Below are positions 96 through 30,142 of a DNA stretch of 64,000 bases, piece by piece. Source of the stretch: Reichenbachiella agarivorans (GTDB lineage Bacteria > Bacteroidota > Bacteroidia > Cytophagales > Cyclobacteriaceae); NCBI RefSeq assembly GCF_025502585.1, contig NZ_CP106679.1, forward strand, positions 849,001-913,000, written 5' to 3'. The notes beneath the pieces were generated by a model. That model saw nothing but the letters and a program-made list of their open reading frames with translations, ran no database searches and was not told the origin of the DNA. Numbering within the stretch: the first letter of the stretch is position 1; every line of letters starts with the position of its first letter. A program made the position numbers and the translations under genes.

Positions 96-1097
96 CTACC
101 TTTCCCCTACCCAATGCGGATAAATTTTGTGAGGGCGGGTTAACGTGTTTAATTCCTCAATGTGCTGTGGAGATAATGACCATCCAGCCGAATCCAAATT
201 ATCTATCAATTGTCTCTCATTTCTTGCACCTATCACTACACTAGAGACTGTTTCATTTTGCAACAGCCAGTTGATGGCGACTTGTGGAATGCTTTTATCC
301 ATTTCTGTGGCAATACGCTCTAGTAAATCAACTACATCGTATACTAGCTCATCATTGACAGGTGGGGAACCAATAGCACCTCCTGATTTTATTCTTCCTT
401 CACCCATAGGCTGATTTCGCTTGATTTTTCCAGTTAACCTTCCCCAGCCTAAAGGACTCCATACCATCAGTCCCAACTCCTGATCTTTGATCAGCGGCAT
501 CAATTCTTGTTCATAATCCCTGCCAATCACTGAGTAATAACCTTGGTAGACGATGTACTTCTCTAGATTCAATTTTTCTGAAACTGATAGCGATTTCATA
601 AGCTGCCATGCTGCAAAATTAGAACAGCCAATGTAGCGTACCTTGCCACTACCCACCATGCCATCCAATGTGCGCAAAGTCTCCTCCATGGGTGTATGCG
701 CATCAAACCCATGCATGATATACAAATCAATATAATCGGTTTGCAAACGCCTTAAACTGTCGTCTAAAGCATTCATTAGGTGAAAGCGTGAGGCTCCCTT
801 ATCATTTGGCCCTGCGCCCATCTGAAATGTGGCCTTGGTTGAAACAATGCTGTTTTGTCTTTTGCCTGATAGCGCTGCACCGAGAATGGATTCGGAATCT
901 CCCTGAGAGTACACATTTGCCGTGTCAAAGAAATTTACACCTCGCTCCAAGCAAATGTCTATGAGCCTAGTGGCCTCTTTCACATCTGTTTTGCCCCATC
1001 TACCAAAAAACTCGTTGGTACCAGCGAATGTCCCTGTTCCGTAACTTAGTACAGGCACTTTTAATCCTGACTTTCCTAAATTTCTGTATTCCATCAT
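96..1097 (-). CDS. Aldo/keto reductase family oxidoreductase
   Basis: NADPH-dependent reductase of the AKR superfamily (voltage-gated K+ channel beta-subunit-like branch), predicted to reduce a carbonyl compound in the cytosol. The N-terminal YRNLGKSGLKVP strand, the FDTANVYSQGDSE segment holding the catalytic Asp and Tyr, the IDLYIMHGFD strand, YIGCSNFAAW and the C-terminal VVIGARNERQLIDN phosphate-binding segment are all present, and length (about 333 aa) is normal. The start is taken at one of two adjacent Met codons (1097 or 1094); the open frame runs 8 codons further but those residues are unlike the family. A CRP-like regulator gene lies just upstream on the same strand (90 bp gap) and may control it. 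The substrate cannot be told from sequence. Confidence 0.9.
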   Translation of the reverse strand: MMEYRNLGKSGLKVPVLSYGTGTFAGTNEFFGRWGKTDVKEATRLIDICLERGVNFFDTANVYSQGDSESILGAALSGKRQNSIVSTKATFQMGAGPNDKGASRFHLMNALDDSLRRLQTDYIDLYIMHGFDAHTPMEETLRTLDGMVGSGKVRYIGCSNFAAWQLMKSLSVSEKLNLEKYIVYQGYYSVIGRDYEQELMPLIKDQELGLMVWSPLGWGRLTGKIKRNQPMGEGRIKSGGAIGSPPVNDELVYDVVDLLERIATEMDKSIPQVAINWLLQNETVSSVVIGARNERQLIDNLDSAGWSLSPQHIEELNTLTRPHKIYPHWVGER

Positions 1098-1186
1098 TTT
1101 TACTGCGTTTCTTTTCAGCAAAATTCAGCCATGAAATACTCAATTCACAGGAGGATTGTCACAGATACGCTGTGCGGTTTGTCACA

Positions 1187-1753
1187 CTAAGCAGGGATGA
1201 GGCGGCTAAGTGTTTCTCGGGAAACACCTAAGTAGGAAGCAATCATTGTTTTCGGGATGCGCTGGATCAAGGCAGGGTATTGCTCTAGCAAATGATGATA
1301 GCGGTCGCTTGCATTGCTACTGATAAAACACATAATTCTTTTTTGTAATGCGATGTATCCAGCGGTTGTTTTCTTCCGAAAGAAGTATTCCATTTTCTGC
1401 AAGTCGCGGCACATTTTCTCTTTGTTCTCCAGGGTTAAGGAAAAAACGATTGCATCTTCTAGGCAATCTACAGACAGGCTTGCTTTGGTGCCATAATGAA
1501 ACGCTTCTGGGTCGGTTATCCACCAATTTTCCATGGCAAAGTGAATGATATGCTCTTTACCTTCGGGACTTATCCGAGCAGCCTTCATCAATCCTTTTGC
1601 AACAAAATAGTCGTACTGCACATAATCGCCCTGCTGGATGATGAGGTGATGTTTTTTAAATGCTTTTTGCTCGAAGTGAGATAATACCCATTCAAACTCT
1701 TCGTCCGTGAGAGAAACAATCTCTTCTATCTGTTGTCTAAGCTTTATTTTCAT
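1187..1753 (-). CDS. CRP/FNR family transcriptional regulator
   Basis: Predicted DNA-binding regulator of 188 aa with an N-terminal cNMP-binding-like jelly roll (about residues 25-115) and a C-terminal winged helix ending in MIASYLGVSRETLSRLIPA, the typical recognition helix of Bacteroidota CRP-like proteins. No Fe-S cysteine cluster like that of FNR is evident, so an oxygen-sensing role is unlikely; the ligand is unknown. It precedes the aldo/keto reductase gene on the same strand, and co-regulation or local control is an inference from that spacing. A second paralogue of the same family is at 3234-3806. Confidence 0.85.
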   Translation of the reverse strand: MKIKLRQQIEEIVSLTDEEFEWVLSHFEQKAFKKHHLIIQQGDYVQYDYFVAKGLMKAARISPEGKEHIIHFAMENWWITDPEAFHYGTKASLSVDCLEDAIVFSLTLENKEKMCRDLQKMEYFFRKKTTAGYIALQKRIMCFISSNASDRYHHLLEQYPALIQRIPKTMIASYLGVSRETLSRLIPA

Positions 1754-1929
1754 TTAAACCAGGGATGAATTTTTGAGTCGCAGATTATACTCGGCAAGCA
1801 GCTACCCCATTCTGTGATACCCACTTGTTTTTACCAAATCTAGAGGATTAATTATTCTTTTGAAATGCCTATTGGACACATGACTTTGTGGTTCGCGAGT
1901 AAATGTGCTCGGTGCTTGATCCTGTCTGA

Positions 1930-2060: not shown

Positions 2061-2564
2061 TTATTTCAGACCAGTTTTATTACTTCTGCGCTCCAATAGG
2101 ATTGTGTCACGCCAAATTCCGTTCATTTTTCCGATTTTTTCACGATAACCAACTTCTCTAAACCCAAGTTTTTTATGAATTATGACACTTCCTTTATTTT
2201 CTGGAAAAATTCCAGATTGTAAAGTCCATATTCCATTATTTTCACTTTCGTCTATCAATTTTTCTAATAATTTAGTTCCTATTTTTTGACCTGAAAAAAT
2301 CGAAGAAACATATACGCTCACTTCTGCAACTCCACCATACACGCATCGAGAAGAAACTGGAGATAATGCACTCCAGCCAACAATTTTATTGTCTATTTCT
2401 GCGACAATTCGACAATCTTTTAAATGCCCGTTGTCCCAATCGTTCCAATTTGGTGCGCTCATTTCGAAAGAAGCATTTCCAGTATTAAGACCTTCTTGGT
2501 AAATTTCAGATACTTGCGTCCAATCAGCTTCTTTTAAGTTTCGAAATATTAATTCCCCATTCAT
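2061..2564 (-). CDS. GNAT N-acetyltransferase, phosphinothricin/methionine sulfoximine type
   Basis: 167-aa acetyl-CoA-dependent N-acetyltransferase. The order of motifs matches the Bar/Pat/YwnH group: IRF-like start, IYQEGLNTGNASFE, then VAEVSVYVSSIFSGQKIGTKLLEKLI (motif A, acetyl-CoA pyrophosphate loop, Q-K-I-G-T in place of Q/RxxGxG/A), SGIFPENKGSVIIHKKLGFREVGYREKIGKMNGIWRDTILLE. Family members acetylate phosphinothricin, methionine sulfoximine or related amino acids; the real substrate here is unknown. It is the last gene of cassette-like block A, preceded by an attC-like site at 2595-2713. Resistance-type acetyltransferases are common integron cassette genes. Confidence 0.85.
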   Translation of the reverse strand: MNGELIFRNLKEADWTQVSEIYQEGLNTGNASFEMSAPNWNDWDNGHLKDCRIVAEIDNKIVGWSALSPVSSRCVYGGVAEVSVYVSSIFSGQKIGTKLLEKLIDESENNGIWTLQSGIFPENKGSVIIHKKLGFREVGYREKIGKMNGIWRDTILLERRSNKTGLK

Positions 2565-2594
2565 TTTTCTTATGGTTTATCTGTTTTCTCAATG

Positions 2595-2713
2595 CTCCAC
2601 AACGTCCAGCTATCATCCGTAAGCTGGACTTTTCAAATTTCTATAAAAGTATCTCATCGCACCAGCCTTTGCAAATAGCTCTGTAAGCTTATGGGTGATA
2701 GGTTTGTTAGCGG
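2595..2713 (-). repeat. attC-like imperfect palindrome, site A1
   Basis: In gene sense (minus strand) the site begins GCTAACAAACC right after the doxX stop and ends GGACGTTGTGG before the acetyltransferase. Arms 2595-2625 and 2685-2713 pair over TATCAYCCRTAAGCT (13 of 15 matches), with two extra bases in one arm (outer part CAACGTCCAGC against TAACAAACC), an asymmetry like the extrahelical bases of attC sites. The AAC/GTT triplets are conserved at the ends. Total about 119 bp. Canonical GTTRRRY is not matched exactly; the 3' core here is GTTGTGG. Confidence 0.65.
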
Positions 2714-2726
2714 TTCGTACTTTTAG

Positions 2727-3179
2727 TCAGTATTTGATTGTTGATAAATACGTCCAGACAATGAAAAGAGCTTGTAAGGGTACCCTGAACCACAAATAGG
2801 GCAGACCATTTCCATCAAAGGTACCTTGCTGATAGTTTACCTGTTTTACAGCAGCGTAAATGTTTGCTGGGAGCATACATATGAAGAAGGCGATAAGCAA
2901 CCACGCAGTGACGATTCTGAAATTTGACATCAACAGTCCAATAGCTGCTGCTATTTCAATAATCCCTGTCAAATAAATGATCTCCTTTTTGTAGAGGACA
3001 AAGTCTGGCAACATCATGGTCATGCCTTTGGTAAAGACAAAATGTCCAATAGCTGTAAACAATAGCATCACCGACATGGCAACTCTAGCAGACAAAGCAA
3101 ATTCATAATTGCCGCTAAAAACCTTGTTTGCCATCAATGCAATGGCAAATACGCTTACTAGTATGATTAAAGGTTTCAT
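2727..3179 (-). CDS. DoxX family membrane protein
   Basis: 150-aa integral inner-membrane protein with four predicted transmembrane helices (about residues 3-20, 30-50, 66-84, 90-110, with a further hydrophobic stretch at the C-terminus). The GHFVFTKGMTMMLPDFVLYKKEIIYLTGIIEIAAAIGLL core is typical of DoxX/DoxX-like proteins, which have roles in redox or thiosulfate-linked processes in some species; the specific role here is unknown. It follows a CRP-like regulator gene by 54 bp in the same direction, so the two probably form one transcription unit and one cassette of block A. Confidence 0.8.
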   Translation of the reverse strand: MKPLIILVSVFAIALMANKVFSGNYEFALSARVAMSVMLLFTAIGHFVFTKGMTMMLPDFVLYKKEIIYLTGIIEIAAAIGLLMSNFRIVTAWLLIAFFICMLPANIYAAVKQVNYQQGTFDGNGLPYLWFRVPLQALFIVWTYLSTIKY

Positions 3180-3233
3180 CTCTTTTTTATGACAAAGATC
3201 AATGTGGCCAGAACAAGAAACAATGAACTTGGG

Positions 3234-3806
3234 TTAAGTAATGCGTCTTCGGATTCGACTCAATGCCTGAGGTGTTACCCCGATGTAGGAGGCAATATAT
3301 TTTAGCGGTATATATTGAATGAGATGTGGTTGTTCCAAAAACAAGTTTTGATAACGTTGCTCGGCAGTCTCGTTTAGTAGTGAAAGCTCTCTTTTCGATT
3401 TCTTTAGATACAAATCCTCACTTGCTTTTCGTCCAATTAAGTTCCCCACTTCTGTCTCTTCATAGATGGTTTGTAGATCATCAAAAGTTATGCGCCAAAG
3501 TGTGGCTTTAGTTAAGGTCTCTATCTGATAGGGTGATGGGGTTCGTGTGATGAAAGAGTCGTAAGCACTCATAAAATTGTTGTCAAAGACAAAAGTAAAG
3601 GTTAGGTTATTTTCCAATTTCGGTATGAAATAGCGAACTATGCCTGTTTCTACAAATGAGAGGTGATTTTCTGTTTGACCCGCTCTCAAAATAATATGCC
3701 TCTTCGGAAATTCTTCAAACGAAAGTTTTGAACTGAAAAGCATCCATTCCTTCTCGCTAATTTTTTGCTGAATCGTACGTTCAAAGTATTGCCTGATTTG
3801 TTCCAT
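3234..3806 (-). CDS. CRP/FNR family transcriptional regulator
   Basis: 190-aa regulator with an N-terminal cNMP-binding-like domain (about 25-120, including the RHIILRAGQTENHLSFVETGIVRYF stretch split by short loops) and a C-terminal helix-turn-helix ending YIASYIGVTPQALSRIRRRI. Same family and size as the regulator at 1187-1753 but clearly a different gene. It lies directly upstream of doxX, which it may regulate. Its own 5' flank contains only half of an attC-like site (3839-3864), so the cassette boundary seems to have been damaged here. Confidence 0.85.
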   Translation of the reverse strand: MEQIRQYFERTIQQKISEKEWMLFSSKLSFEEFPKRHIILRAGQTENHLSFVETGIVRYFIPKLENNLTFTFVFDNNFMSAYDSFITRTPSPYQIETLTKATLWRITFDDLQTIYEETEVGNLIGRKASEDLYLKKSKRELSLLNETAEQRYQNLFLEQPHLIQYIPLKYIASYIGVTPQALSRIRRRIT

Positions 3807-3838
3807 CTTGGATTAGTAGTTCAGTTTTCATCTGCACC

Positions 3839-3864
3839 CCCATGAATGATAGGTCATGTTAGCA
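3839..3864 (-). repeat. Half attC-like site (truncated), site A2
   Basis: After the stop of the 3869 lipoprotein gene, the minus strand reads GCTAACATGACCTATCATTCAT, close to the first arm of site A1 (GCTAACAAACCTATCACCCAT). The matching second arm with a GTTGTGG-type end is absent; the CRP-like gene starts about 33 bp later. The likely reading is a site that lost its 3' half by deletion, fusing two cassettes. Confidence 0.45.
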
Positions 3865-3868
3865 TTCT

Positions 3869-4270
3869 TTAAAAGCACTCATAGTTTCGTTCTATTCCGA
3901 AGCAGGCTTTACAAGAACCACTAATTAATGAGTCTTTAGCAGGAAATTCAAGATCACAAACAGATCCACCTTTAAGGTTATATAATTCAGTTTGGGAATT
4001 GCTGAGTTCGCCAAATAGGTTTTCTAGTTCTAGGGTGTCAATGCCCATAACTCCGTAAACATAAATTGGACCACATCCATTTCCTCCTGGAATATATGTC
4101 GTTCTACAATCTTCCGAGGTTTCGCCAGTTGATGCATCAATTATTCCATTGATTTTAGTTGTTAGTCGTTCAATTTTAGCTTCAAGTTCTGAAGCTGTTA
4201 AGTTGTCATCCTCATTGCAACTAAATGTTAAACATATGAACGTTAGTAGAATATAAAATGTAGTTCTCAT
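3869..4270 (-). CDS. Small putative lipoprotein of unknown function
   Basis: About 133 aa. Starting at the Met that gives MRTTFYILLTFICLTFSC, the N-terminus is a short hydrophobic signal followed by an LTFSC lipobox, so it is probably an outer-membrane or periplasmic lipoprotein. Residues about 20-50 (ELEAKIERLTTKINGIID) may form a short coiled coil. The rest has six cysteines spread over the mature part (CRTTY, NGCGP, VCDLEF, SCKACFG, ECF), suggesting disulfides or metal binding. No family recognised. It stands alone between attC-like sites A3 and A2, as a single-gene cassette. Confidence 0.7.
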   Translation of the reverse strand: MRTTFYILLTFICLTFSCNEDDNLTASELEAKIERLTTKINGIIDASTGETSEDCRTTYIPGGNGCGPIYVYGVMGIDTLELENLFGELSNSQTELYNLKGGSVCDLEFPAKDSLISGSCKACFGIERNYECF

Positions 4271-4316
4271 ATTCAAAAGACACATTATTTACTTCGTTGG
4301 TTGTAATCTATGAATG

Positions 4317-4436
4317 CTCCACAACATCCAGATATGACACGTGCCTCTGAACTTTCAAAGTTCTACTAAAGTATCGGTTTTTCACTTCAGTTTCAAATAA
4401 CTATGTAGAGGCATGTGCTATATCGTTTGTTAGAGA
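4317..4436 (-). repeat. attC-like imperfect palindrome, site A3
   Basis: Minus-strand start TCTCTAACAAACG follows the PEBP gene and the end CATCTGGATGTTGTGGAG precedes the lipoprotein gene. Arms match over ATATRRCACRTGCCTCT with two extra bases in the second arm, the same offset as in site A1. Length about 120 bp with a non-conserved middle of some 65 bp. The end GTTGTGGAGCATT is shared with site A1, as expected if cassettes were joined by recombination at this core. Confidence 0.7.
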
Positions 4437-4439
4437 CTT

Positions 4440-4994
4440 TTACTTTTTCTCTCTTTGATAGTAGGTGATTATACTTGCTTTCGCTATGGTATTGTTCCAT
4501 AGATAGTATCCTACTATTGCTGGATTTGTGTTTTCATCTAACCCTAGCTTTTCTGTTTTTAAGGCATATACGGTAATTACATATTTATGTAGTCCATGAC
4601 CTTCGGGTGGGCAAGGACCGCCATATCCTTTAGCTCCATAATTGGTGATACTTTGAATAGCATTTTTTGGCGCAAGGTCGGCCGAGACATTTCCAGCATT
4701 ACTAACTAATTCGTTTATATCAGACGGGATATCAAACATTACCCAATGCCACCACCCACTTCCTGTAGGAGCATCTGGATCATACATCGTCACGGCAAAG
4801 CTTTGAGTTCCTGCAGGAGCATTCTTCCATGTCAATTGGGGCGACTCGTTCTTGCCTACACAGCCAAAACCATTAAACTCTTCTGTTAAGGTTGCTTGTC
4901 CTCCAAGATTCTGACTTGACAAAGTAAATGTTGATTGGCTAAATGACACTTGAGTGATGATGCCAAAGGCAACTGATAAGATTATCTTTTTCAT
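4440..4994 (-). CDS. YbhB/YbcL-family (PEBP/Raf kinase inhibitor-like) secreted protein
   Basis: Phosphatidylethanolamine-binding-protein fold, about 184 aa from MKKIILSVAFG, which starts a cleavable signal peptide ending near VSFSQ. The family signatures are clear: NESPQLTWKNAPAGTQSFAVTMYDPDAP with the DPDAP ligand-pocket motif, GWWHWVMFDIP, and YGGPCPPEGHGLHKYVITVYAL with the PCPPxGxHxY motif. Members bind small anionic ligands; bacterial function is poorly known, and a periplasmic location is predicted here. An AraC-type regulator gene lies 88 bp upstream on the same strand, so both likely travel in one cassette of block A. Confidence 0.85.
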   Translation of the reverse strand: MKKIILSVAFGIITQVSFSQSTFTLSSQNLGGQATLTEEFNGFGCVGKNESPQLTWKNAPAGTQSFAVTMYDPDAPTGSGWWHWVMFDIPSDINELVSNAGNVSADLAPKNAIQSITNYGAKGYGGPCPPEGHGLHKYVITVYALKTEKLGLDENTNPAIVGYYLWNNTIAKASIITYYQREKK

Positions 4995-5082
4995 AATTGT
5001 ATATTTTAAATTAATAGACAAATATTATTTCTAATTCAACAGTGCCGTTAGTTGAGCTGGCTCAAAAAGTATTGCTAAAAGC

Positions 5083-5922
5083 TCAATCCAATTGATATTG
5101 CTTTGGAGTCATTCCATACTTGGATTTGAAGGCTTGAATAAAGTTGGTCAGTGAATCATAGCCAACTTGTAAATAGATATCGGTGGGTCTTTTCCCCTCG
5201 CTTTTAAGTAACAAGGCGGCATATTCTAACCTTCTTTCCTGAAACCATTTACTTGGAGAAGCATGAAATTGTCTCTCAAATGTTCGCTTAAAAGTAGATA
5301 TACTCATGTTGCACAAGAAGGCGAGTTCATTGATTGTTAGTCGGTTGAGCTTGTTGTTTTCTATTATTTCCTGAAAGTGGTGTTCATGTTCGTTTGTACT
5401 AATTACGAATGAAGAGAGTAATTCCACCCCCTCCTTATCAATCAGATACAGCATGAGCTCCTCAAATTTTACTTGTAGAACTTTATCCCTGTGAACAGAA
5501 GATAGGTTGACTAGGTGAGCAAGACTTTTAGCAAAAGATCGTAGGTAATCATCATATTTAATGGATTGAACTGATTTCCTTTCTGTCATCTTGGATAGCA
5601 CAATTGAGTATTTCCTTATAAAGCGTAGCAGAGCTTCATCCGTGAAAAAGAAAAGAATGCTTCTATACCTTTTCAGCGTATCGGTAAATTTCTCAGTCAT
5701 AAGGCACTTACCTGACTTCATTAAAAGGAACTCGCTATTCGAAATGGCACTAAATTTCGTATCTGAGTAAACCTCTTTATTCCCTTCGGTCAGGAAACTG
5801 AAGGTATTCATAGATAGGTTTACTTGCTGTTTGGTCGATTCTTGCTCTACTTGGTAATCGAAGGCCAGAACGCTTGAGCCTTTATTGATAATTAATTGTT
5901 CTGGGAGGGAGATTGTTTTCAA
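5083..5922 (-). CDS. AraC family transcriptional regulator
   Basis: 279-aa regulator. The C-terminal 95 residues hold two helix-turn-helix motifs: INELAFLCNMSISTFKRTFERQF and RPTDIYLQVGYDSLTNFIQAFKSKYGMTPKQY, which match AraC/XylS DNA-binding domains. The N-terminal part resembles the ExsA-like effector-free domain (DUF-type) found in many Bacteroidota AraC proteins, with no clear sugar-binding cupin. It is upstream of the PEBP gene in the same direction and is the obvious candidate to control it. Its upstream flank contains an inverted repeat and a REP-like element instead of another gene. Confidence 0.88.
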   Translation of the reverse strand: MKTISLPEQLIINKGSSVLAFDYQVEQESTKQQVNLSMNTFSFLTEGNKEVYSDTKFSAISNSEFLLMKSGKCLMTEKFTDTLKRYRSILFFFTDEALLRFIRKYSIVLSKMTERKSVQSIKYDDYLRSFAKSLAHLVNLSSVHRDKVLQVKFEELMLYLIDKEGVELLSSFVISTNEHEHHFQEIIENNKLNRLTINELAFLCNMSISTFKRTFERQFHASPSKWFQERRLEYAALLLKSEGKRPTDIYLQVGYDSLTNFIQAFKSKYGMTPKQYQLD

Positions 5923-5932
5923 GGTGCAATAC

Positions 5933-6022
5933 TGACTAACGCACGGAAAAGTGCAATTTATTTAATTGATAATTGTAATATTTCAAGCGTAATTTCATAT
6001 GTTCTCTGTCCGTGCGTTTGCT
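5933..6022 (-). repeat. Candidate attC-like site A3b in front of the AraC gene
   Basis: Exact 10-bp inverted repeat AACGCACGGA (5938-5947) and TCCGTGCGTT (6009-6018) with a 61-nt middle. On the minus strand it ends CGTTAGTCAG just before the AraC start, again with a GTT core. If it is a member of the attC-like family, the stretch between it and site A4 would be a cassette without a gene. The arms are short, so this is a candidate only. Confidence 0.4.
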
Positions 6023-6062
6023 TCTGAAATCAATTTGGAAAGGTTGAAATTGCCATCTTTCT

Positions 6063-6177
6063 GCTTGAGCGCATCTGTGATGCGTTCTTAATCTTATTTG
6101 GCATCTGAGATGCGGTACAGCCAATTATCCGCATTACAAATGCTCAATCTATATTCATCTTCTAGAATATCTCAGTC
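6063..6177. repeat. REP-like multi-hairpin element, copy 1
   Basis: About 115 bp repeated at 9361-9469 with high identity. It contains three mini-palindromes built on GCAT...ATGC: GCATCTGTGATGC, GCATCTGAGATGC and GCATTACAAATGC, separated by AT-rich spacers and the shared segment GGTACAGCCAATTATCC. Short clustered palindromes of this kind resemble REP elements mobilised by Y1 (RAYT) transposases. No such transposase is in the window. In this copy it is followed at once by a separate 27-nt palindrome. Confidence 0.65.
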
Positions 6178-6197
6178 GCAATGCAATTGCGACTGAG
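6171..6197. repeat. 27-nt palindrome, 12-bp arms
   Basis: Arms CTCAGTCGCAAT and ATTGCGACTGAG pair perfectly around a 3-nt loop GCA. It overlaps the end of REP-like copy 1; the second copy at 9361 diverges at this point, so the palindrome is specific to this locus. No T-run follows. The remaining bases up to 6268 are AT-rich with no gene. Confidence 0.6.
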
Positions 6198-6268
6198 CGG
6201 GATAGTATTGCAATTAAGCTAAGTCCAATTAATATTAATATTGAGGTTCTATTTCTCATGCAGGAATG

Positions 6269-6388
6269 GAGTACAACGATCAACTAAAATGAGTATGCGA
6301 CCCAACTGCTAGAAGCACTGAAGTTGCTTTTCTGTAATGCCTTATCAAAGATCTCAGTTCGAATATTCATTTTAGTGTTTGTTGTGGA
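6269..6388 (-). repeat. attC-like imperfect palindrome, site A4
   Basis: On the minus strand the site begins CCACAACAAACACTAAAATG a few bases after the stop of the AlbA_2/RRM gene and ends CATTTTAGTTGATCGTTGTAC. Arms pair over ACTAAAATGARTATKCGA (16 of 18 matches), with the AAC/GTT triplets near the ends and a one- to two-base offset between triplet and stem, as in the other sites. Length about 120 bp. The next gene on the minus strand (AraC) begins about 350 bp further on. Confidence 0.65.
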
Positions 6389-6392
6389 GAGT

Positions 6393-8198
6393 TTACTTTT
6401 TGAATTCTTGAACGAACAGTTTTCTTCCTTTCACAATTATATTATGGGTATGTTTCAGGGCTTTTAATGCACTTCCCTTCTTAGTAAATTCTAGAAACCC
6501 GAACCCTCTTCCTCGACCGTTAAAAGGATTCTTCGGTAGACTAATATCTTCTATTTCCCCAAAGCTTTGAAAAGCTTTCTCCATATCATCTTCAGTGGTA
6601 TCGTAATGAATGTTGGTTATATAAATTTTCGCATAGTCAGAAGAGTCTACTTCAAATTTTTCCGTTTCACTACCTTCTTCAGGCATAGTAATCTCATATC
6701 TCGGAACAGCCTTCCTTGAATTTCCATACTTGCGTTTAAGATTGGTAACCCTCGAAGAGGTCAACTTATTCTTCAGTATTCTCTTTCCTCTAAGTGATTC
6801 AATTAACTGTCTAAAAGCATCTTCACTCACTATTCCTACTTGGTCAAAGATTTCCCTAGTACTCACTAGCCTTGAGTTAAGCCCTAACCTTACGACTGTT
6901 TTTTCCTCTCTACTAAGATTTAAAGGTTCAAATTGTTCTAACCAAAGTTTCTCTTCTTTGGTATACACGTGCTTGTAAAATAGTGTTATTGCAAATGTCT
7001 TATTTGCCGATTCAAGTGAAGGCTTTACTAAATCATTTTGAGACATAAGTTCAAAAATCCTTCTAATTCCTTCCCCAAGTTCTCTGATATACCCAAATTC
7101 TCTTAGTACACGGGCGATGTATGTATTTCTTGATTGATGAGAGCCTTTTAATTCTTCTAGATCTTTAATTGTAATTGAGGAAAGGAGTTCACCTGGATTG
7201 CTTATAGTAAGTCGGTCATCATAAATTTTCACTTCAATTCCTCTTCCTTCAGCACTATAATCTCTATGGGTAATTGCATTTATAAGTGCCTCTCTACAGG
7301 CAGTTTCAGGGTATAGAATCTGCGTTCTAAATAGTGCGTCTTTCGAAAATCTCGTTTCTGTTAAATGTGGTCTAAGTAATTCCCAACTACGATCAACCAA
7401 CTGGAAAACATTTCCGCTCGCTTCGCCTACTTCTTGAACATTAAATTCTGAACCGACCTTCTCTTCAGTTCCTTTTATCTTTAAAATTCTTACTTGAATA
7501 CGTGGATGCCATTTTTGGGCATCTTTAGCAAACAGTAATGTTGCAGCTTTCCTTAGCTTCAATCTGTCGCCATCAAACTCTGCTAGCTCTAGATATTGAA
7601 GGAATTTCTCTGGTGATATTGTTTTGAATATATTCTGAGAAACTTCATTGATTAAAGAAATATCCAAGTCACTTACTTTAGCTGCATCAATAAAGTGACG
7701 ATCGTACTCTCTAGAAATTTCTTCATCTCTTTCTAGTCGAATTAAGTCAGCTGAAGTTGGTTCTGATTCTCGGTCTTTTCTTTGAAAGCATTCTCCTTTT
7801 GAGGTTTGGTGAATGTATTTCGTGCCTTTGTCTACGGAAAAATAGGCTACTTTCTTCGAGTTGATTTCAACAATAGTAGCTCTTTTAACTGGGACAGGAG
7901 TTTCTTTTAGAATGTTGTTTTTTGCAGAATCTAATATCAATTGAACAGCATTCTGATTATGTGGAATTCCTAGAATTTGGTTATCGTCTTCTATTCCAAC
8001 GAATAGTTCGCCTCCATCTGCGTTTGCAAACGCAACTAGGGTTTTTGCTACATCGTAGCATATCTCTTTTACATCTCGAGGGGTCTTGTTGTCAGGTGGA
8101 CCTTCAAGCGCACTTTTAAATTCTCGATAATAGCTTTCACCTATTTCGGTGGCTAATTCAATTCGCTCTTTTAGTTTTAATATTTCCTCAGTATCCAT
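6393..8198 (-). CDS. AlbA_2 (Schlafen-like) / GHKL-type ATPase / RRM fusion protein
   Basis: About 601 aa from MDTEEILKLK; the frame extends 16 codons upstream but those codons fall in attC-like site A5 and are not family-like. Residues about 20-150 form an AlbA_2/Schlafen-type nucleic-acid-binding domain (ESYYREFKSA, VAKTLVAFANADGGELFVGIED). Residues about 290-400 resemble the HATPase_c_4 domain of RecG-like regulators (CREALINAITHRDYS, ISNPGELLSSIT, RELGEGIRRIFELM). A winged-helix-like stretch follows (about 425-500). The C-terminal 80 residues are an RNA recognition motif, with RNP2-like IYITNIHY and RNP1-like RGFGFLEF. AlbA_2 plus ATPase is a common pairing in regulators and defence proteins; the appended RRM is unusual. 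Likely binds RNA or DNA. First gene of block A. Confidence 0.8.
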   Translation of the reverse strand: MDTEEILKLKERIELATEIGESYYREFKSALEGPPDNKTPRDVKEICYDVAKTLVAFANADGGELFVGIEDDNQILGIPHNQNAVQLILDSAKNNILKETPVPVKRATIVEINSKKVAYFSVDKGTKYIHQTSKGECFQRKDRESEPTSADLIRLERDEEISREYDRHFIDAAKVSDLDISLINEVSQNIFKTISPEKFLQYLELAEFDGDRLKLRKAATLLFAKDAQKWHPRIQVRILKIKGTEEKVGSEFNVQEVGEASGNVFQLVDRSWELLRPHLTETRFSKDALFRTQILYPETACREALINAITHRDYSAEGRGIEVKIYDDRLTISNPGELLSSITIKDLEELKGSHQSRNTYIARVLREFGYIRELGEGIRRIFELMSQNDLVKPSLESANKTFAITLFYKHVYTKEEKLWLEQFEPLNLSREEKTVVRLGLNSRLVSTREIFDQVGIVSEDAFRQLIESLRGKRILKNKLTSSRVTNLKRKYGNSRKAVPRYEITMPEEGSETEKFEVDSSDYAKIYITNIHYDTTEDDMEKAFQSFGEIEDISLPKNPFNGRGRGFGFLEFTKKGSALKALKHTHNIIVKGRKLFVQEFKK

Positions 8199-8209
8199 TT
8201 CGCTAATTC

Positions 8210-8258
8210 TCCACAACAATTGAGCATGCGGACAAAAGTTCCGCATACTTGCCTTATA
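8210..8258 (-). repeat. Short attC-like hairpin, site A5 (upstream end of block A)
   Basis: Minus strand: ATAAGGCAAGTATGCGGAAC, loop, GTCCGCATGCTCAATTGTTGTGGAG. The arms ATGCGGA/TCCGCAT enclose a tiny loop, so the site is only about 50 bp. The outer end GTTGTGG is the same core as in sites A1, A3 and B5. It precedes the AlbA_2/RRM gene by about 12 bp. A near copy is at 29776-29828, at the upstream end of block B. Confidence 0.65.
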
Positions 8259-8524
8259 TCTTTTTTACAGTGCACTATATTTTTCTACGTAGTGCAATAC
8301 TCAAAACACTCCGACCATCTAAATCAGAAGTACCGAATACCTTGACTTGATCAGCATAGCAAAATACATCCTCTCCCGTCATAGCGACAAACTTTTCCCT
8401 CTCTAATACCGCAAACCACCCAAAAAATACCCAAATATAGGGATGGCGGCAAAGCTGAGGATTGAATAACTTGACCTATATGAAACCAACCAGTTATATA
8501 CTTCATAGCTATCCCATTGGCTAT

Positions 8525-8790
8525 GTCGCTCCCAGCTACGGGAGCAGATTGTACCTCCTCGCAAAGTCGCTACAAGTCGCAGGAACAGATCGTACCCATA
8601 CTACAGGCTGCCACAATCTGCAGGAGCAAATCGTACGAGTACGACGGGTCGCTGCAAGCTGCAAGAACACATCGTACCAGTACAAAACGTCGCTACAAGC
8701 TGCGACCACAGACCGTAGCAGTACGCAGGGTTGCTGCAAGCTGCAAGGGCAGATCGTAGCAATACCCAAACCTGCTGCTACCATCGCTAG
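8525..8790. repeat. 41-bp tandem repeat array, six copies plus a partial
   Basis: Units begin at 8525, 8566, 8607, 8648, 8689, 8730 and (partial) 8771, an exact 41-bp step. The consensus is roughly GTCGCTACAAGCTGCARGA followed by ACAGATCGTACCAGTACnnnnn; copies are diverged but the period never slips. Because 41 is not a multiple of three the reading frame rotates from unit to unit, so the overlapping open frames here are probably not genes. The array is markedly more GC-rich than its flanks. The rest of 8259-8841 contains a small hairpin (8271-8296) and no gene. Confidence 0.85.
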
Positions 8791-8841
8791 AAAATGAACA
8801 TACTATTTTTAAATAAATTAATCACATAAACTAACTAAACT

Positions 8842-9365
8842 ATGATCAATGGAATCGCAATCACTAGGTTACGCAACAGCGAGTTTTCCCAACTGAACAG
8901 CGACGTATTGGCACTGATCCAGCGCAACGACCCTGCTGCCCTGAAGGTAGAAGAGGCTTACAACCTGCTGAAAGCCGAAAATGATGAACTCACCGTCCTA
9001 CTCAACCCAGACAAAGGCAGCGCCCTAACCGCGCTGCTGGAAGCTGCCGATGACCGTCGTGACCATGCCGTCACAGGCATCAATCTGGTGGTGTCGGGTT
9101 ATGTCAATCATTTTGACCAGGCTACCCGTGGGCATGCACTCGCTCTACTGCGCAATCTGGGGCAATATGGCAGTGGGAACCTCGCTAGAGCAAACTACCA
9201 GAGTGAGACGGCTGGCATCAGCAGCATGCTGACCGACTGGACTACCAAGCCCGAACTGGCGGCTGCCATCACGGCACTGCACCTAGACGACTGGAAAGAG
9301 GAACTGCCCTGGCCAACAAGGAGTTCAACGATCTCTATCTGTCCCGCACCGAGGAGGTCTGCTTG
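8842..9365 (+). pseudogene. DUF6261-like gene, frameshifted and truncated
   Basis: The first about 153 residues (MINGIAITRLRNSEFSQL ... ALHLDDWKEEL) look like a normal helical protein resembling the Bacteroidota DUF6261 family, which is usually 220-250 aa; family assignment is moderately sure. After GAACTG near 9310 the frame gives nonsense, but shifting by one base restores LANKEFNDLYLSRTEEV, a sensible continuation with few rare features. Right after that (9361) the sequence turns into REP-like copy 2, so the 3' third is missing. It is GC-rich compared with its neighbours and follows the 41-bp array. Best read as a decayed gene whose end was lost at the REP-like element. Confidence 0.7.
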
Positions 9366-9469
9366 AGCGTGTGATGCGTTCTTAATCTTATTTGGCACCT
9401 GAGATGCGGTACAGCCAATTATCCGCATTACAAATGCTCACTATCTTCATCTTCTAGAATAGCTCAGTC
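9361..9469. repeat. REP-like multi-hairpin element, copy 2
   Basis: Second copy of the 6063-6177 element, same orientation, differing by a small deletion in the first mini-palindrome and a few substitutions, ending with CTTCTAGAATAGCTCAGTC. It replaces the end of the DUF6261-like gene. The first palindrome is broken here (only TGTGATGC of it remains), the other two are intact. Confidence 0.65.
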
Positions 9470-26403: not shown

Positions 26404-26648
26404 TTATTCACCAATCTTCAAGAGTTCGTAGGTTATGTCATTCGTTGTTGGAGCTATCGGTCCCTCTGTTCCCTCGATATAACCAGACAAGTTGAGCTTT
26501 TTGTTTGTTCGTATGTATTGCCAACGGTACTTTATTTCTAGACCAAGGTCATGAACTTCGGATACATGTCCATATTCATGAATTTCTAAAGTGTCGCCAG
26601 AGTAGAAGTAATCGATTTTGTTAGTTGATTCAAACTCGCAGCTGGACT
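26404..26648 (-). pseudogene. 3' half of a lipoprotein gene split by IS3
   Basis: Reads CEFESTNKIDYFYSGDTLEIHEYG... to the stop ELLKIGE. Joined across the IS to the 5' half at 27899-28187 the frame is continuous if three bases at the junction are treated as target duplication (ACT/AGT, one mismatch). The joined product would be about 180 aa, with a beta-rich C-terminal part like lipocalin-type proteins; this family call is tentative. Not expected to be made as a functional protein. Confidence 0.7.
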
Positions 26649-26672
26649 TGCAACAAAAAAGTGGACAAATAG

Positions 26673-27533
26673 TTAAGCGCATTTTGAATAATTATCTTCC
26701 CCAAATTCATCGGGTGTTTTATAGCCTAGATAGGCATGTTTCCTTTTTCTATTGTACCAAACTTCAATGAATTCAAATATTTGAGTTTTAGCTTGAAGGA
26801 TACTGTAGTAATTGACATGGCTGACCATTTCAGACTTGAGTATTTTGAAAAAGCTTTCAGCAACAGCATTGTCCCAACAATTCCCTTTTCTGCTCATGCT
26901 CTGCTTGACTCCCTCTCGCTTGAGATGATCAGAAAAAGCATACGCAGCATATTGCACGCCTCGATCTGAATGAAATAACAAGGCTTTAGTAATAGGTCTG
27001 TTTTTGATTGCCATTTTCCATGCAGCTAATACAGTAGCCTGTGTGGTCATCGTCGTGCTTAGTGACCAACCCACGATCTTTCGGTCGTACAAATCCATGA
27101 CAATAGTGAGGTACAACCATCCTTGCTTTGTGGGAATGTAGGTGATGTCAGACACCCATTTTTGCCCTGGGCCTTCCGCATGAAAATCCCTATTCAAGTG
27201 GTTTTCAGCTAATGGGAATGAATGTTTAGAATCAGTAGTAACACCTCTGAATTTCTTGACCACAATACTTCTAATGCCTTCTGCACGCATGATTCTTGCC
27301 ACTCTCTGCCTGGAAACTTTCCATCCCATATCCTGCAGGTCATCTGTGACTTTAGGGCTTCCATACCTTTGTTTACTGCTAAGATGAACCTTTTTGATGT
27401 CCTCCATGAGCTGTTTCCTTTGTTTATACCTTTTGGAAGGCTTGTGATGTAACCAACGATAGTAGCCGCTCCGACTTACCTTGAATACTCGACACATCTT
27501 CTCAACGGAATGTTTATCGTGGTTTGCCTTCAT
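26673..27533 (-). CDS. IS3-family transposase OrfB (DDE integrase core)
   Basis: 286 aa. N-terminal HTH_21 region (FKVSRSGYYRW...), then an rve integrase core with the DDE triad: Asp in WVSDITYIP, Asp in FHSDRGVQYAA, Glu in DNAVAESFFKILKSE, and the downstream Lys/Arg patch YNRKRKHAYLGYKTP. Overlaps the end of orfA by 4 bp (ATGA); no A6G slippery site is obvious, so coupling rather than frameshifting may link the two. Confidence 0.92.
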   Translation of the reverse strand: MKANHDKHSVEKMCRVFKVSRSGYYRWLHHKPSKRYKQRKQLMEDIKKVHLSSKQRYGSPKVTDDLQDMGWKVSRQRVARIMRAEGIRSIVVKKFRGVTTDSKHSFPLAENHLNRDFHAEGPGQKWVSDITYIPTKQGWLYLTIVMDLYDRKIVGWSLSTTMTTQATVLAAWKMAIKNRPITKALLFHSDRGVQYAAYAFSDHLKREGVKQSMSRKGNCWDNAVAESFFKILKSEMVSHVNYYSILQAKTQIFEFIEVWYNRKRKHAYLGYKTPDEFGEDNYSKCA

Positions 27534-27850: not shown

Positions 27851-27898
27851 TAAATTTAACTCCTACGAGCTTAACTTACTGTCTCTTCAAATGTAGCA

Positions 27899-28187
27899 AG
27901 TTCAAGCGGTATTCATAGCCAATTGTATCGTTGACAAAGTTCAAGGTATCGACACAGTTAGGGAAGTCCTCAAATGGTCGGTGAATCCAAATCGTTCCGG
28001 TTAAGCTCTTAATTTCAATAACCTCTTCGGTTTCATTCGCCTCTGAAGGTTTGGTTGGTTCTGAAGTTGGTTGTTCAGCTGCGGATACTGCAGAGGTATC
28101 TTGTTGTTGGGAAGAATTGTTCTTCTCAGTTCCAGTAGAACAGCCGATGGCCGATAAAATAATGATTGATAAGATTAGGTTCTTCAT
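27899..28187 (-). pseudogene. 5' half of a lipoprotein gene split by IS3
   Basis: MKNLILSIIILSAIGCS gives a signal with lipobox SAIGCS; then a Ser/Glu/Pro-rich linker (about 20-65) and the start of a folded domain (LTGTIWIHRPFEDFPNCVDTLNFVNDTIGYEYRLN). The IS3 end follows; the open frame runs a few codons into the IS to a stop at 27876. The continuation is at 26404-26648. Confidence 0.75.
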
Positions 28188-28194
28188 GATATTA

Positions 28195-28386
28195 CCGCTA
28201 ACGCCTGTGTATAAATCGTGCGCTTTTTGGAAAGTTAATGCTTCTGATACTAAATAGCCAAATCTGTGAAATGGTCTATAATTTTTTTCTTTTCAATAGG
28301 CCAATTCGCAGAATTGGCGGGGCTTCCAAAACCGCCGCCCTTTCGTCTAGCACCGCCCGCGCATGATTTTATACACCATGTTATGC
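28195..28386 (-). repeat. attC-like imperfect palindrome, site B3
   Basis: Minus strand begins GCATAACATGGTGTATAAAATCATGCGC, where TAA is also the stop codon of the upstream membrane-protein gene, and ends GCGCACGATTTATACACAGGCGTTAGCGG. The arms pair over TGTATAAAATCRTGCGC with a few mismatches. The middle includes ACTAAATAGCCAAATCTGTGA, shared with site B1. Stop codon inside the first core box is typical of compact integron cassettes. Confidence 0.7.
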
Positions 28387-29046
28387 TTTTTTTCTTAGTC
28401 GGTTTATATACCCTTTTATTTGAAATATGAGTCTTGCCAAAACTAAAGTTCCTATTGTGAAAAATGCGATTGAAACTTTATTTGAAAAGTCATTCTCAAC
28501 CATTTTTGAATAGCTTATTCCAATTACGAAAACTGTGACTATCAATATTAATGTAGAAAACCAAATGTTAGTTTTAGCTTGGTCATATCTGTTTTGGTTC
28601 CTAGTTTTTAAGTTAGGTTTATGGCTCGATGAGTTAATAATAACCTGTTCAAGGGAGTCGAAATTCTGAAATTCTAGATCGGAAATAGTAATCAATTGAC
28701 CAGACTTGAAAGTAATATCTAGCATTCTATAGTCTCCAGCTCTAACTGTTCCCCAAAGTCTCCATGATAGCTTTTTTACTTCTGATAGCTCAAGTCTAAT
28801 TATATGAAGTTTAAGAGGGTAAATAGCCGTAATTGAATTGCTGTTCAAAATTATCCATTTCGTTTTAATGGCTATAAAAAGAAGGGCTGCTGGAAAAATA
28901 AGATAGAAGCATAACATCCCTAATTGTTTAAAAGTATCTGCTTCATCAGTGAATTTGATTCCTGTTGAATAAATCAAATAACCACTTACCCAAAGGATTG
29001 ATCCAAAGTAAAGAGATGTGAAAAATGATGGGATACTGATCTTCAT
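28381..29046 (-). CDS. Membrane protein with a PH-like cytosolic domain, unknown function
   Basis: 221 aa. Two transmembrane helices near the N-terminus (about 8-28 and 42-60), a soluble domain (about 62-150) with strands like WIILNSNSITAIYPLKLHIIRLELSEVKKLSW that resemble bacterial PH domains, and two more helices (about 160-182, 190-208). No family with known function recognised. Single-gene cassette between sites B4 and B3; its stop codon lies within site B3. Confidence 0.7.
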   Translation of the reverse strand: MKISIPSFFTSLYFGSILWVSGYLIYSTGIKFTDEADTFKQLGMLCFYLIFPAALLFIAIKTKWIILNSNSITAIYPLKLHIIRLELSEVKKLSWRLWGTVRAGDYRMLDITFKSGQLITISDLEFQNFDSLEQVIINSSSHKPNLKTRNQNRYDQAKTNIWFSTLILIVTVFVIGISYSKMVENDFSNKVSIAFFTIGTLVLARLIFQIKGYINRLRKKA

Positions 29047-29060
29047 TCAAGTCCTATAAA

Positions 29061-29286
29061 GCATAACGCCCATGTATGAGGCGTGTGCTCTCACTTTATG
29101 GACAGCACTAAAGTAGTGAAGTCTGCCGATGCTTCCAAAGTTTGTAGAATGCACTGCGTTCCAAAAGTCAAAAAATCCCGCGAGCTGAAGCTTCCAAACA
29201 GCACAGAACTTTCTCGGTGGCAGACTGTCCCGATGCAGTCTGTAGAAAGCACGTAAGCACATGCCTCATACATAATGTTGTGGTGC
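29061..29286 (-). repeat. attC-like imperfect palindrome, site B4
   Basis: Minus strand begins CACCACAACATTATGTATGAGGCATGTGCT after the 153-aa gene and ends AGCACACGCCTCATACATGGGCGTTATGC. The arms pair over ATGTATGAGGCRTGTGCT, 17 of 18 bases. Both ends carry AAC/GTT. The middle (about 165 bp) contains CTAAAGTAGTGAAGTCTGCCGA, shared with B2, and inner inverted repeats (CAGACTG/CAGTCTG). Confidence 0.75.
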
Positions 29287-29293
29287 GTTTAGT

Positions 29294-29755
29294 TTAGAAT
29301 TCTGGCATTTTCTTTAGAAGGTTTCTTCGGTCTATTCCTTCAAGTTCGGTAATGTCAATCTGCTGTTCCTCCTTCCCCTTAACTTGCCAGTTGGTATTGG
29401 TATGAATGCTTAGAATTAAATGATTCTTATTATGTTCCGATGTTGTTGGGTTGTTGAAGTTAGTCCAGATAGTTATCTCAAGCCTCATTAGGTTTTCTGG
29501 ATCGCAGTTGTGTTTCAAGCAATGTTCTGGAAGCCAATCCATGTAGTCGTTCAAAAGTTGTTTGCTACTATCTGATATTGCTTCATTCGGTTCAATCGTT
29601 CCTTTCAAAAAATCGAAAGTTGCTTTTGGTTCTAGACCCAAGTTTGCAAGTTCCACCAGTACATTAAAAGACTGTTTTGGACTCTTCATATAGTCCAGAC
29701 TCTGAAAGGAGTGCGCAAAGTTGTGAATTGCCGATTTGTAGTTCTTGTACTTCAT
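29294..29755 (-). CDS. Unknown 153-aa protein, first gene of block B
   Basis: Soluble, mixed alpha/beta protein, no signal peptide or transmembrane helix. N-terminal MKYKNYKSAIHNFAHSFQSL and a C-terminal half with ITIWTNFNNPTTSEHNKNHLILSIHTN strands. I do not recognise the family. It lies between site B5 (upstream) and B4 (downstream), so it is a single-gene cassette. Confidence 0.7.
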   Translation of the reverse strand: MKYKNYKSAIHNFAHSFQSLDYMKSPKQSFNVLVELANLGLEPKATFDFLKGTIEPNEAISDSSKQLLNDYMDWLPEHCLKHNCDPENLMRLEITIWTNFNNPTTSEHNKNHLILSIHTNTNWQVKGKEEQQIDITELEGIDRRNLLKKMPEF

Positions 29756-29775
29756 GAGTTTCTATGCAGTGCTAT

Positions 29776-29828
29776 GCACCACAACATTCGTGTATGCGGA
29801 ACTTTTGTCCGCATACTTGCCTTATGGC
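29776..29828 (-). repeat. Short attC-like hairpin, site B5 (upstream end of block B)
   Basis: Minus strand GCCATAAGGCAAGTATGCGGA, loop, TCCGCATACACGAATGTTGTGGTGC. The stem GTATGCGGA/TCCGCATAC has a tiny loop. Nearly the same as site A5 (both share CCGCATACTTGCCTTAT on the plus strand and the GTTGTGG core). No integrase gene follows on either side. Confidence 0.65.
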
Positions 29829-30032
29829 ATGAGTAAATCTAAGTTTTTTAATTTGTCGATAAGATAGCTTTTCTCACTCATGCCTCCTGCCAAATCTAAC
29901 ACCTCACCCTCATATCTCACCAAAAGATGGATGCTTTGTTGCACTGTTCATAGCAATATACCCAAATCTTGGTAGGTGATTTTCGTGCTTAGGGAGCCGT
30001 TTTCCTGGCTATCCGTTACTTCGACTCCTATG

Positions 30033-30142
30033 TAAGCTTACATCAGGTCCCAGGATAGCTTACATGGAGGCTCAAGTAAGCTATCTTGGAGGGTCATATA
30101 AGCTATCATGAAGGCTATAGTAAGCTTACTCCCAAACTACCT
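30033..30142. repeat. 22-bp tandem repeat, five copies
   Basis: Units start at 30033, 30055, 30077, 30099 and 30121, exactly 22 bp apart, with conserved head TAAGCT(T/A) and variable tail around GGAGGCTCA. Period and copy number resemble iterons or a regulator array; no replication gene is near. The rest of 29829-30399 has no gene. Confidence 0.8.

Follow-up and report, generated by a model that had tools for sequence, protein, structure and literature searches.

Integrons of the IntI type, such as the sedentary chromosomal integrons of Vibrio cholerae, combine an integrase gene and an attI site with co-oriented arrays of short cassettes, each ending on its 3' side in an imperfect palindrome, attC, with an inverse core, a core, unpaired spacers and an exchange point inferred to lie at GTT. 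This chemistry predicts that a cassette opens with bases inversely complementary to those flanking its own attC. The same elements are found in the system to which block A appears to belong, a run of seven genes, all on the minus strand, at positions 2,061–8,258 of a 64,000-nucleotide stretch (the window; NZ_CP106679.1, positions 849,001 to 913,000) of the single-contig, 4.47 Mb genome of Reichenbachiella agarivorans (G000). Block A is very probably an array of cassettes belonging to an integron class centred on Bacteroidota, with an integrase type, attI and attC of its own, which IntI-based models miss. It is proposed with moderate confidence that this is a second, IntI-independent integron class that is widespread in Bacteroidota and beyond, in which the integrase often has a Zn-ribbon partner, attI is a dyad, attC marks the reacting strand by A.C/G.T and, in some chromosomes, the integron is distributed, a single integrase serving many dispersed attI pads.

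The portions available of PMC8618304 and PMC9668308 place Bacteroidota among the phyla with integrons. Reports of complete integrons in the phylum are nevertheless few: an earlier survey recorded only In0 elements in Bacteroidetes and the single complete integron that a later survey mentions is that of Salinibacter ruber (PMC9024848, sections available), while the accessible part of PMC8352920 gives attC models for 11 named taxa, Bacteroidota not being one of them. Among the papers listed by searches of the open-licence PubMed Central literature, preprints excluded, none describes a system such as the present one to judge from titles and abstract openings.

An earlier note on the window had described block A as a cassette-like array of genes on one strand, separated by attC-like palindromes with AAC/GTT ends and unequal arms. 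This description is confirmed for three palindromes, S1–S3 (Table 1), which are co-oriented, end in YAAC and GTTR, measure 108 to 109 nt and have unrelated stems, with unequal spacers (in S2 and S3, 4 versus 5 bases; in S1, 4 versus 6). The pattern AACAAAC-N(85–115)-GTTGT retrieves exactly S1–S3 from the window (three occurrences versus 0.48 expected, equalled in one of 100 shuffles); GTTGTGGAG alone, with one mismatch allowed, is not enriched there (18 versus 13.4). The departure of the core from GTTRRRY, also remarked on in the note, is general: GTTRRRY fits only 14 of 86 intact sites and the fourth base is R in 84 of them, so that the core here is GTTR, in contrast to the RYYYAAC/GTTRRRY of IntI integrons. 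In 14 related sites, picked for looking like sites, 97.1% of the cells are paired and both sides have changed in 15 of 20 pairs, values that none of 500 shuffles reaches (covariation 0.501 versus 0.170 shuffled), and sliding the partners along the stem lowers pairing to 21–39%.

Related sites were searched for in 196 genomes from 84 genera of the family, to which Ekhidna lutea (G191) also belongs. A covariance model built from the attC-like sites themselves (R1; up to 17 candidates scored per genome) matches in 93 of the 196 genomes and 52 of the 84 genera, and BLAST with S1 (up to four candidates scored per genome) finds it in 42 genomes, with identities of up to 93% between genera, loop included. 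Longer site classes of about 154, 215 and 223–240 nt have the same ends. In all loci examined that have at least two R1 sites these are co-oriented, the exception being a weak reverse-strand match on the same palindrome in L161. S1 has no match in the plasmids and phages searched. One position of the stem is distinctive. Among 53 sites, many of them related copies, that were kept from 98 collected (the other 45 had incomplete ends or a weak outer stem), position 11 on the gene strand is unpaired in 51 (49 A.C and two C.C) and A.T in the remaining two, while the other 16 stem positions are unpaired in 0–21%. Since A.C reads as G.T on the opposite strand, the two strands fold differently. For the folded bottom strand of attC in IntI integrons, two extrahelical bases have been described (PMC3053210, in the part available); the present sites, read from sequence, show one conserved stem mismatch and unequal spacers, which may mark a difference.

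The predicted match between cassette ends is seen in part of the cassettes. Cassette A1, the first of block A, starts with GTTGTGGAG (8217) and its attC begins with CTCCACAAC, 11 of 12 bases agreeing. Among 58 neighbouring co-oriented site pairs, 48 have intact AAC and GTT, and 20 of these agree at five or more of seven informative bases, nine of them at all seven; shuffled pairs (2000 shuffles) reach this level in 3.1 cases on average and ten at most. At locus L156, the starts GTTATGCGC and GTTGGCGGTA are found again exactly at the ends of their own cassettes. An integrase alignment was also used to search a named-genome collection (n = 84,980), giving at least 559 relatives, of which the best 80 loci were used; 63 of these have at least 400 nt after the recombinase stop and could be tested. 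An exact inverted 9-mer lies downstream of 33 of 111 GTTR occurrences near the recombinase stop, corresponding to 33 of the 63 loci, compared with 122 of 4172 control GTTR occurrences at the same loci. The matching loci include Winogradskyella, Aquimarina, Seonamhaeicola, Pontibacter, Algoriphagus and Flavobacterium psychrophilum, as well as some bins with unchecked labels of other phyla.

A fourth palindrome (8210–8258), which the note had counted as an attC, is not one; the hairpin is a copy of attI. The landing pad upstream of it shares 98% identity across 1158 nt with a second copy at about 4.16 Mb (L336), and the identity ends at the GTT of the attI core, beyond which the two continue into different sequence. 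This divergence of a duplicated pad at the core points to exchange at GTT. Landing-site copies of this one genome, different from the GTT onwards, likewise hint at the variation in cassette content that the note proposed to look for between strains. The attI dyad occurs 14 times in this chromosome versus once for a reversed control, and 0–2 times in each of seven congeners; 12 of the 14 copies have the core GTT. For five of the 14, an exact matched first-cassette end lies within 1.5 kb, and beyond that distance matches are found for the copy at block A (11/12) and for L335 (9/10). A second copy in the window, attI copy B, is followed by two cassettes, B1 and B2, with exactly matched ends (Table 1). 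A dyad within attI and many attI copies per chromosome are both unlike IntI integrons.

The integrase of unusual specificity that the note had postulated has a candidate, a tyrosine recombinase of non-IntI type that is found elsewhere in this genome and beside the arrays of relatives. The note's statement that there is no integrase holds inside block A; outside it, there is a weak C-terminal remnant close by (Table 1) and a related recombinase at 2.405 Mb. Only two of the 196 family genomes (G032 and G108) have an IntI-type integrase above the curated cut-off of TIGR02249 (265 bits). At locus L153, seven co-oriented sites stand behind a tyrosine recombinase gene that is split over two frames by a frameshift and whose stop is 28 bp ahead of the next gene. 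Its relatives P0001 (306 aa) and P0002 (290 aa) score 209.2 and 205.2 bits with TIGR02249, below what is required of an IntI, and 218.9 and 222.3 bits with NF040815 recomb_XerA_Arch (curated cut-off 220), under and over the threshold, respectively. In the sequence alignment P0001 has, unlike IntI integrases, no counterpart of the IntI-specific insertion of about 32 residues (211–242 of the 2a3v chain), and its predicted structure (mean predicted local distance difference test score, pLDDT, 78.5; predicted template-modelling score, pTM, 0.57) resembles archaeal Xer and XerA most and 2a3v next. The R, K, HxxR, H and Y residues are invariant in an eight-row recombinase alignment; these are the catalytic residues of tyrosine recombinases.

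The order of elements behind these recombinases is that of an integron. The stop is followed by a TATATTTGA stretch, the dyad and GTTR, an attI element that by eye is clear in eight of ten loci, partial in L155 and absent from L203, and a second recombinase group of about 380–390 aa shows the same arrangement with attI (L314, L221 and L222). At L205, L210, L221 and L222, R1 sites lie downstream in the orientation of the recombinase; L204 and L208 have more than 2 kb after the recombinase and no R1 match. In the genome of R. agarivorans, the recombinase gene at 2,405,537–2,406,310 is followed by the same attI dyad with the core GAT. A further difference from IntI integrons is a gene for a Zn-ribbon-like protein beside many of the integrases: a homologue is present in 36 of the 80 named loci, divergent in 35 of the 36 and 97–875 nt upstream of the integrase match. 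The copy in L153 has no Pfam or NCBIfam match, and six of eight genomes of the genus of the window have a homologue. Of the features that define an integron in the broad sense, an attI beside the integrase with cassettes starting there is present in relatives, the pad in the window being without its integrase, and complementarity of the cassette start to its own inverse core is present in part of the pairs.

The anatomy, the covariation, the matched ends, the divergence at GTT and the order of integrase, attI and cassettes in relatives, all read from the DNA, fit a mechanism in which attI and attC would be joined by a tyrosine recombinase close to XerA and IntI. In this mechanism attI consists of a short dyad, a few further bases and GTTR, and each cassette ends on its 3' side in attC, a long imperfect palindrome. 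If the recombinase is active, a circular cassette intermediate would enter by exchange at G^TT, leaving the cassette start GTTRnnnnn and the flank of its attC, nnnnnYAAC, inversely complementary to each other. By analogy with known integrons, attC is probably reactive as a folded single strand, and the choice of strand may lie in the unequal spacers and in stem position 11 (A.C on the gene strand and G.T on the other). About 14 attI pads scattered over the chromosome, block A standing on one of them, may be served in trans by the recombinase encoded at 2.405 Mb, or may have been in the past. If this is correct, a major phylum has a large cassette pool of its own that has been overlooked by IntI-based detection, the IntI-specific insertion is dispensable for cassette capture, and scattered attI pads constitute an architecture that allows one integrase to load many chromosomal positions.

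Several observations weigh against this interpretation. No match is seen in 28 of the 48 intact site pairs; many of the unmatched pairs have long gaps or several genes between them, and it is assumed that sites there have decayed or escaped detection. In the window, ends match only for A1, B1 and B2, with agreement at two of seven bases for S3–S2 and one of seven for S2–S1, and no exact matched end was found within 1.5 kb of the pad copy at L336. R1 (E up to 0.05) finds sites in only five of 20 recombinase-centred loci (L205, L209, L210, L221 and L222), partly because contigs end early. Folding of S1 on the gene strand is no better than that of shuffles (z −0.82), and the better-folding strand varies from site to site. 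The recombinase of R. agarivorans has an altered N-terminus and no matched cassette behind it, which together with its GAT core suggests that it may be inactive, and a search of this genome for the Zn-ribbon homologue gave no matches. Finally, a quick, midpoint-rooted tree places two long-branched IntI rows inside the recombinase side, at a fork that it leaves unresolved. In the available part of PMC8138268, the insertion is not fully conserved within an integron-like subgroup of tyrosine recombinases, so relatives of the present proteins may already belong to that subgroup, for whose members the same part describes no attI, attC or cassette array; the tree and this variability slightly weaken the claim to a class of its own.

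The tree also bears on the alternative that survives best, albeit as an unlikely one, namely that block A is a degraded canonical integron, i.e. a cluster of attC sites lacking an integrase (CALIN) in which ordinary IntI-class cassettes have remained after loss of the IntI gene. In overall anatomy block A resembles a CALIN, the IntI-positive genomes G032 and G108 each have two R1 matches, and IntI rows are not separated from the recombinases in the tree. However, the sites occur in far more genomes than does an IntI above the cut-off (93 versus two of 196), few cores fit the IntI consensus, the recombinase adjoining the arrays and attI is a different one, and block A, unlike a CALIN, starts at an attI copy and has attC of another structural class. 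Xer recombinases, such as XerA and those of archaea, are known for chromosome dimer resolution, and it is conceivable, if very improbable, that housekeeping Xer proteins move the cassettes with no dedicated integrase. The integrase family is near XerA by profile and fold and G000 has further Xer-like genes, but the recombinases adjoining arrays and attI split from two Xer rows of G000 with 99% support in the quick, midpoint-rooted tree, and their genes precede an attI and a cassette array. Least probable of all is that the palindromes are immobile terminators or repeats like miniature inverted-repeat transposable elements that follow genes by chance, which would account for long palindromes with a conserved loop behind genes in many copies, but not for the matched cassette ends and attI/first-cassette match, for arrays starting at a recombinase or for a duplicated pad diverging at GTT. 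An origin of the palindromes within transposable elements, raised in the note as a possible objection, finds no sign in block A, where the Pfam matches of the seven genes include no transposase. An integron class with its own integrase remains the preferred interpretation.

Table 1. Features of block A, its flanks and the second landing pad (window coordinates unless a locus is given)
Feature	Position	Strand	Remarks
Gene pair homologous to a cassette of G002	96..1790	-	88% identity over 1695 nt
Possible integrase C-terminus remnant	1835..1909	-	25 aa, 48% identity, E 0.53; weak alone
GNAT acetyltransferase	2061..2564	-	Pfam
attC-like S1	2601..2708 (palindrome 2590-2715)	-	Stem type ACTATCATCC, 108 nt
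DoxX-like membrane protein	2727..3179	-	Pfam score under cut-off
Crp-like regulator	3234..3806	-	cNMP_binding, Pfam
Lipoprotein-like open reading frame	3869..4285	-	By eye; without Pfam match
attC-like S2	4323..4431 (palindrome 4312-4440)	-	Stem type GATATAGCAC, 109 nt
PEBP-family protein	4440..5021	-	Pfam
AraC-type regulator	5083..5922	-	ExsA_N + HTH_18, Pfam
attC-like S3	6275..6383 (palindrome 6265-6392)	-	Stem type ACTAAAATGA, 109 nt from AAC to GTT
Cassette A1 gene	6393..8198	-	SLFN_AlbA_2 + HATPase_c_4 + RRM_1, Pfam
attI copy A (fourth palindrome)	8215..8258	-	Dyad 8227-8245, core GTT 8217-8215
Landing pad A, upstream part	8246..9371	-	Leader with stacked palindromes; duplicate at G000:C1 ~4.16 Mb
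Cassette B2 gene, 221 aa	28381..29046	-	Start GTTATGCTT matches end AAGCATAAC at 28388, exact
attC-like site of B1, 215 nt	29065..29279	-	A.C at stem position 11, by eye
Cassette B1 gene, 153 aa	29294..29755	-	Start GTTGTGGTGC = end GCACCACAAC exactly
attI copy B	29783..29830	-	Dyad 29795-29813, core GTT 29785-29783
Zn-ribbon-like gene, ~135 aa	L153 17568-17978; L156 5730-6137; L205 8935-9345		

Within block A, R1 reports no attC of its own for the GNAT gene. The half site that the note had placed at 3839 is merely a left-arm-like stretch of the minus strand that R1 does not report at E up to 0.05. Rfam at gathering score gives nothing in block A, its sole match in the window being a tRNA. Two candidate site patterns were dropped: the loose pattern AACAA-N-GTTGT, with 212 and 221 occurrences in this genome versus 318 and 316 for the reversed control, and TAACAA-N-CGTTGTGG, found in 18 of 59 genomes with a reversed control that was no rarer, from which only S1 itself and L047 were kept as sites. 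A stem finder run on the 80 named integrase loci gave no R1-like stem, the attC of other clades apparently taking different forms; flavobacterial attC-like palindromes of a form unlike R1 are seen in L263, L296, L288, L233 and L267.

Two candidates concerning recombinases were also discarded. An internal stop in the recombinase of R. agarivorans was dropped as the TAG in question is the C-terminal stop, and a split recombinase near a site at 2.073 Mb was rejected as an array integrase, its halves being read by eye as housekeeping Xer; this Xer-like gene (G000:C1:2073662-2074175, L110) lies in two frames, possibly owing to a sequencing error or because it is a pseudogene. At 26648–26839 of the window (minus strand), the translation is identical to the N-terminus of the L313 recombinase and the region upstream, indicating a duplicated 5' part of an integrase gene near the second array. 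The pad B region (27876–29830, minus strand) contains a probable third cassette with the start GTTAGCGGTAATATC, followed by a 103-aa open reading frame. Upstream of the attI pads, at 8520–8800 and 29990–30130, there are short palindromes that by eye are about 25 nt apart and whose sequence is pad-specific.

The gene pair to the left of block A presumably encodes a Crp-like and an aldo/keto-reductase-like protein. Its copy in G002 is flanked by the start GTTGTGTG and the site L316:6082-6222, with eight of nine bases matching, about 13 kb downstream of a 381-aa recombinase. The window copy has neither a recognisable start core nor an attC, and the left flank may represent remains of the ancestral platform of this genome beside a scattered pad. 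A noncoding repeat occurs in two near-identical copies (6076–6177 and 9370–9469; 99% identity over 71 nt and 93% over 29 nt), one within block A and the other past its attI.

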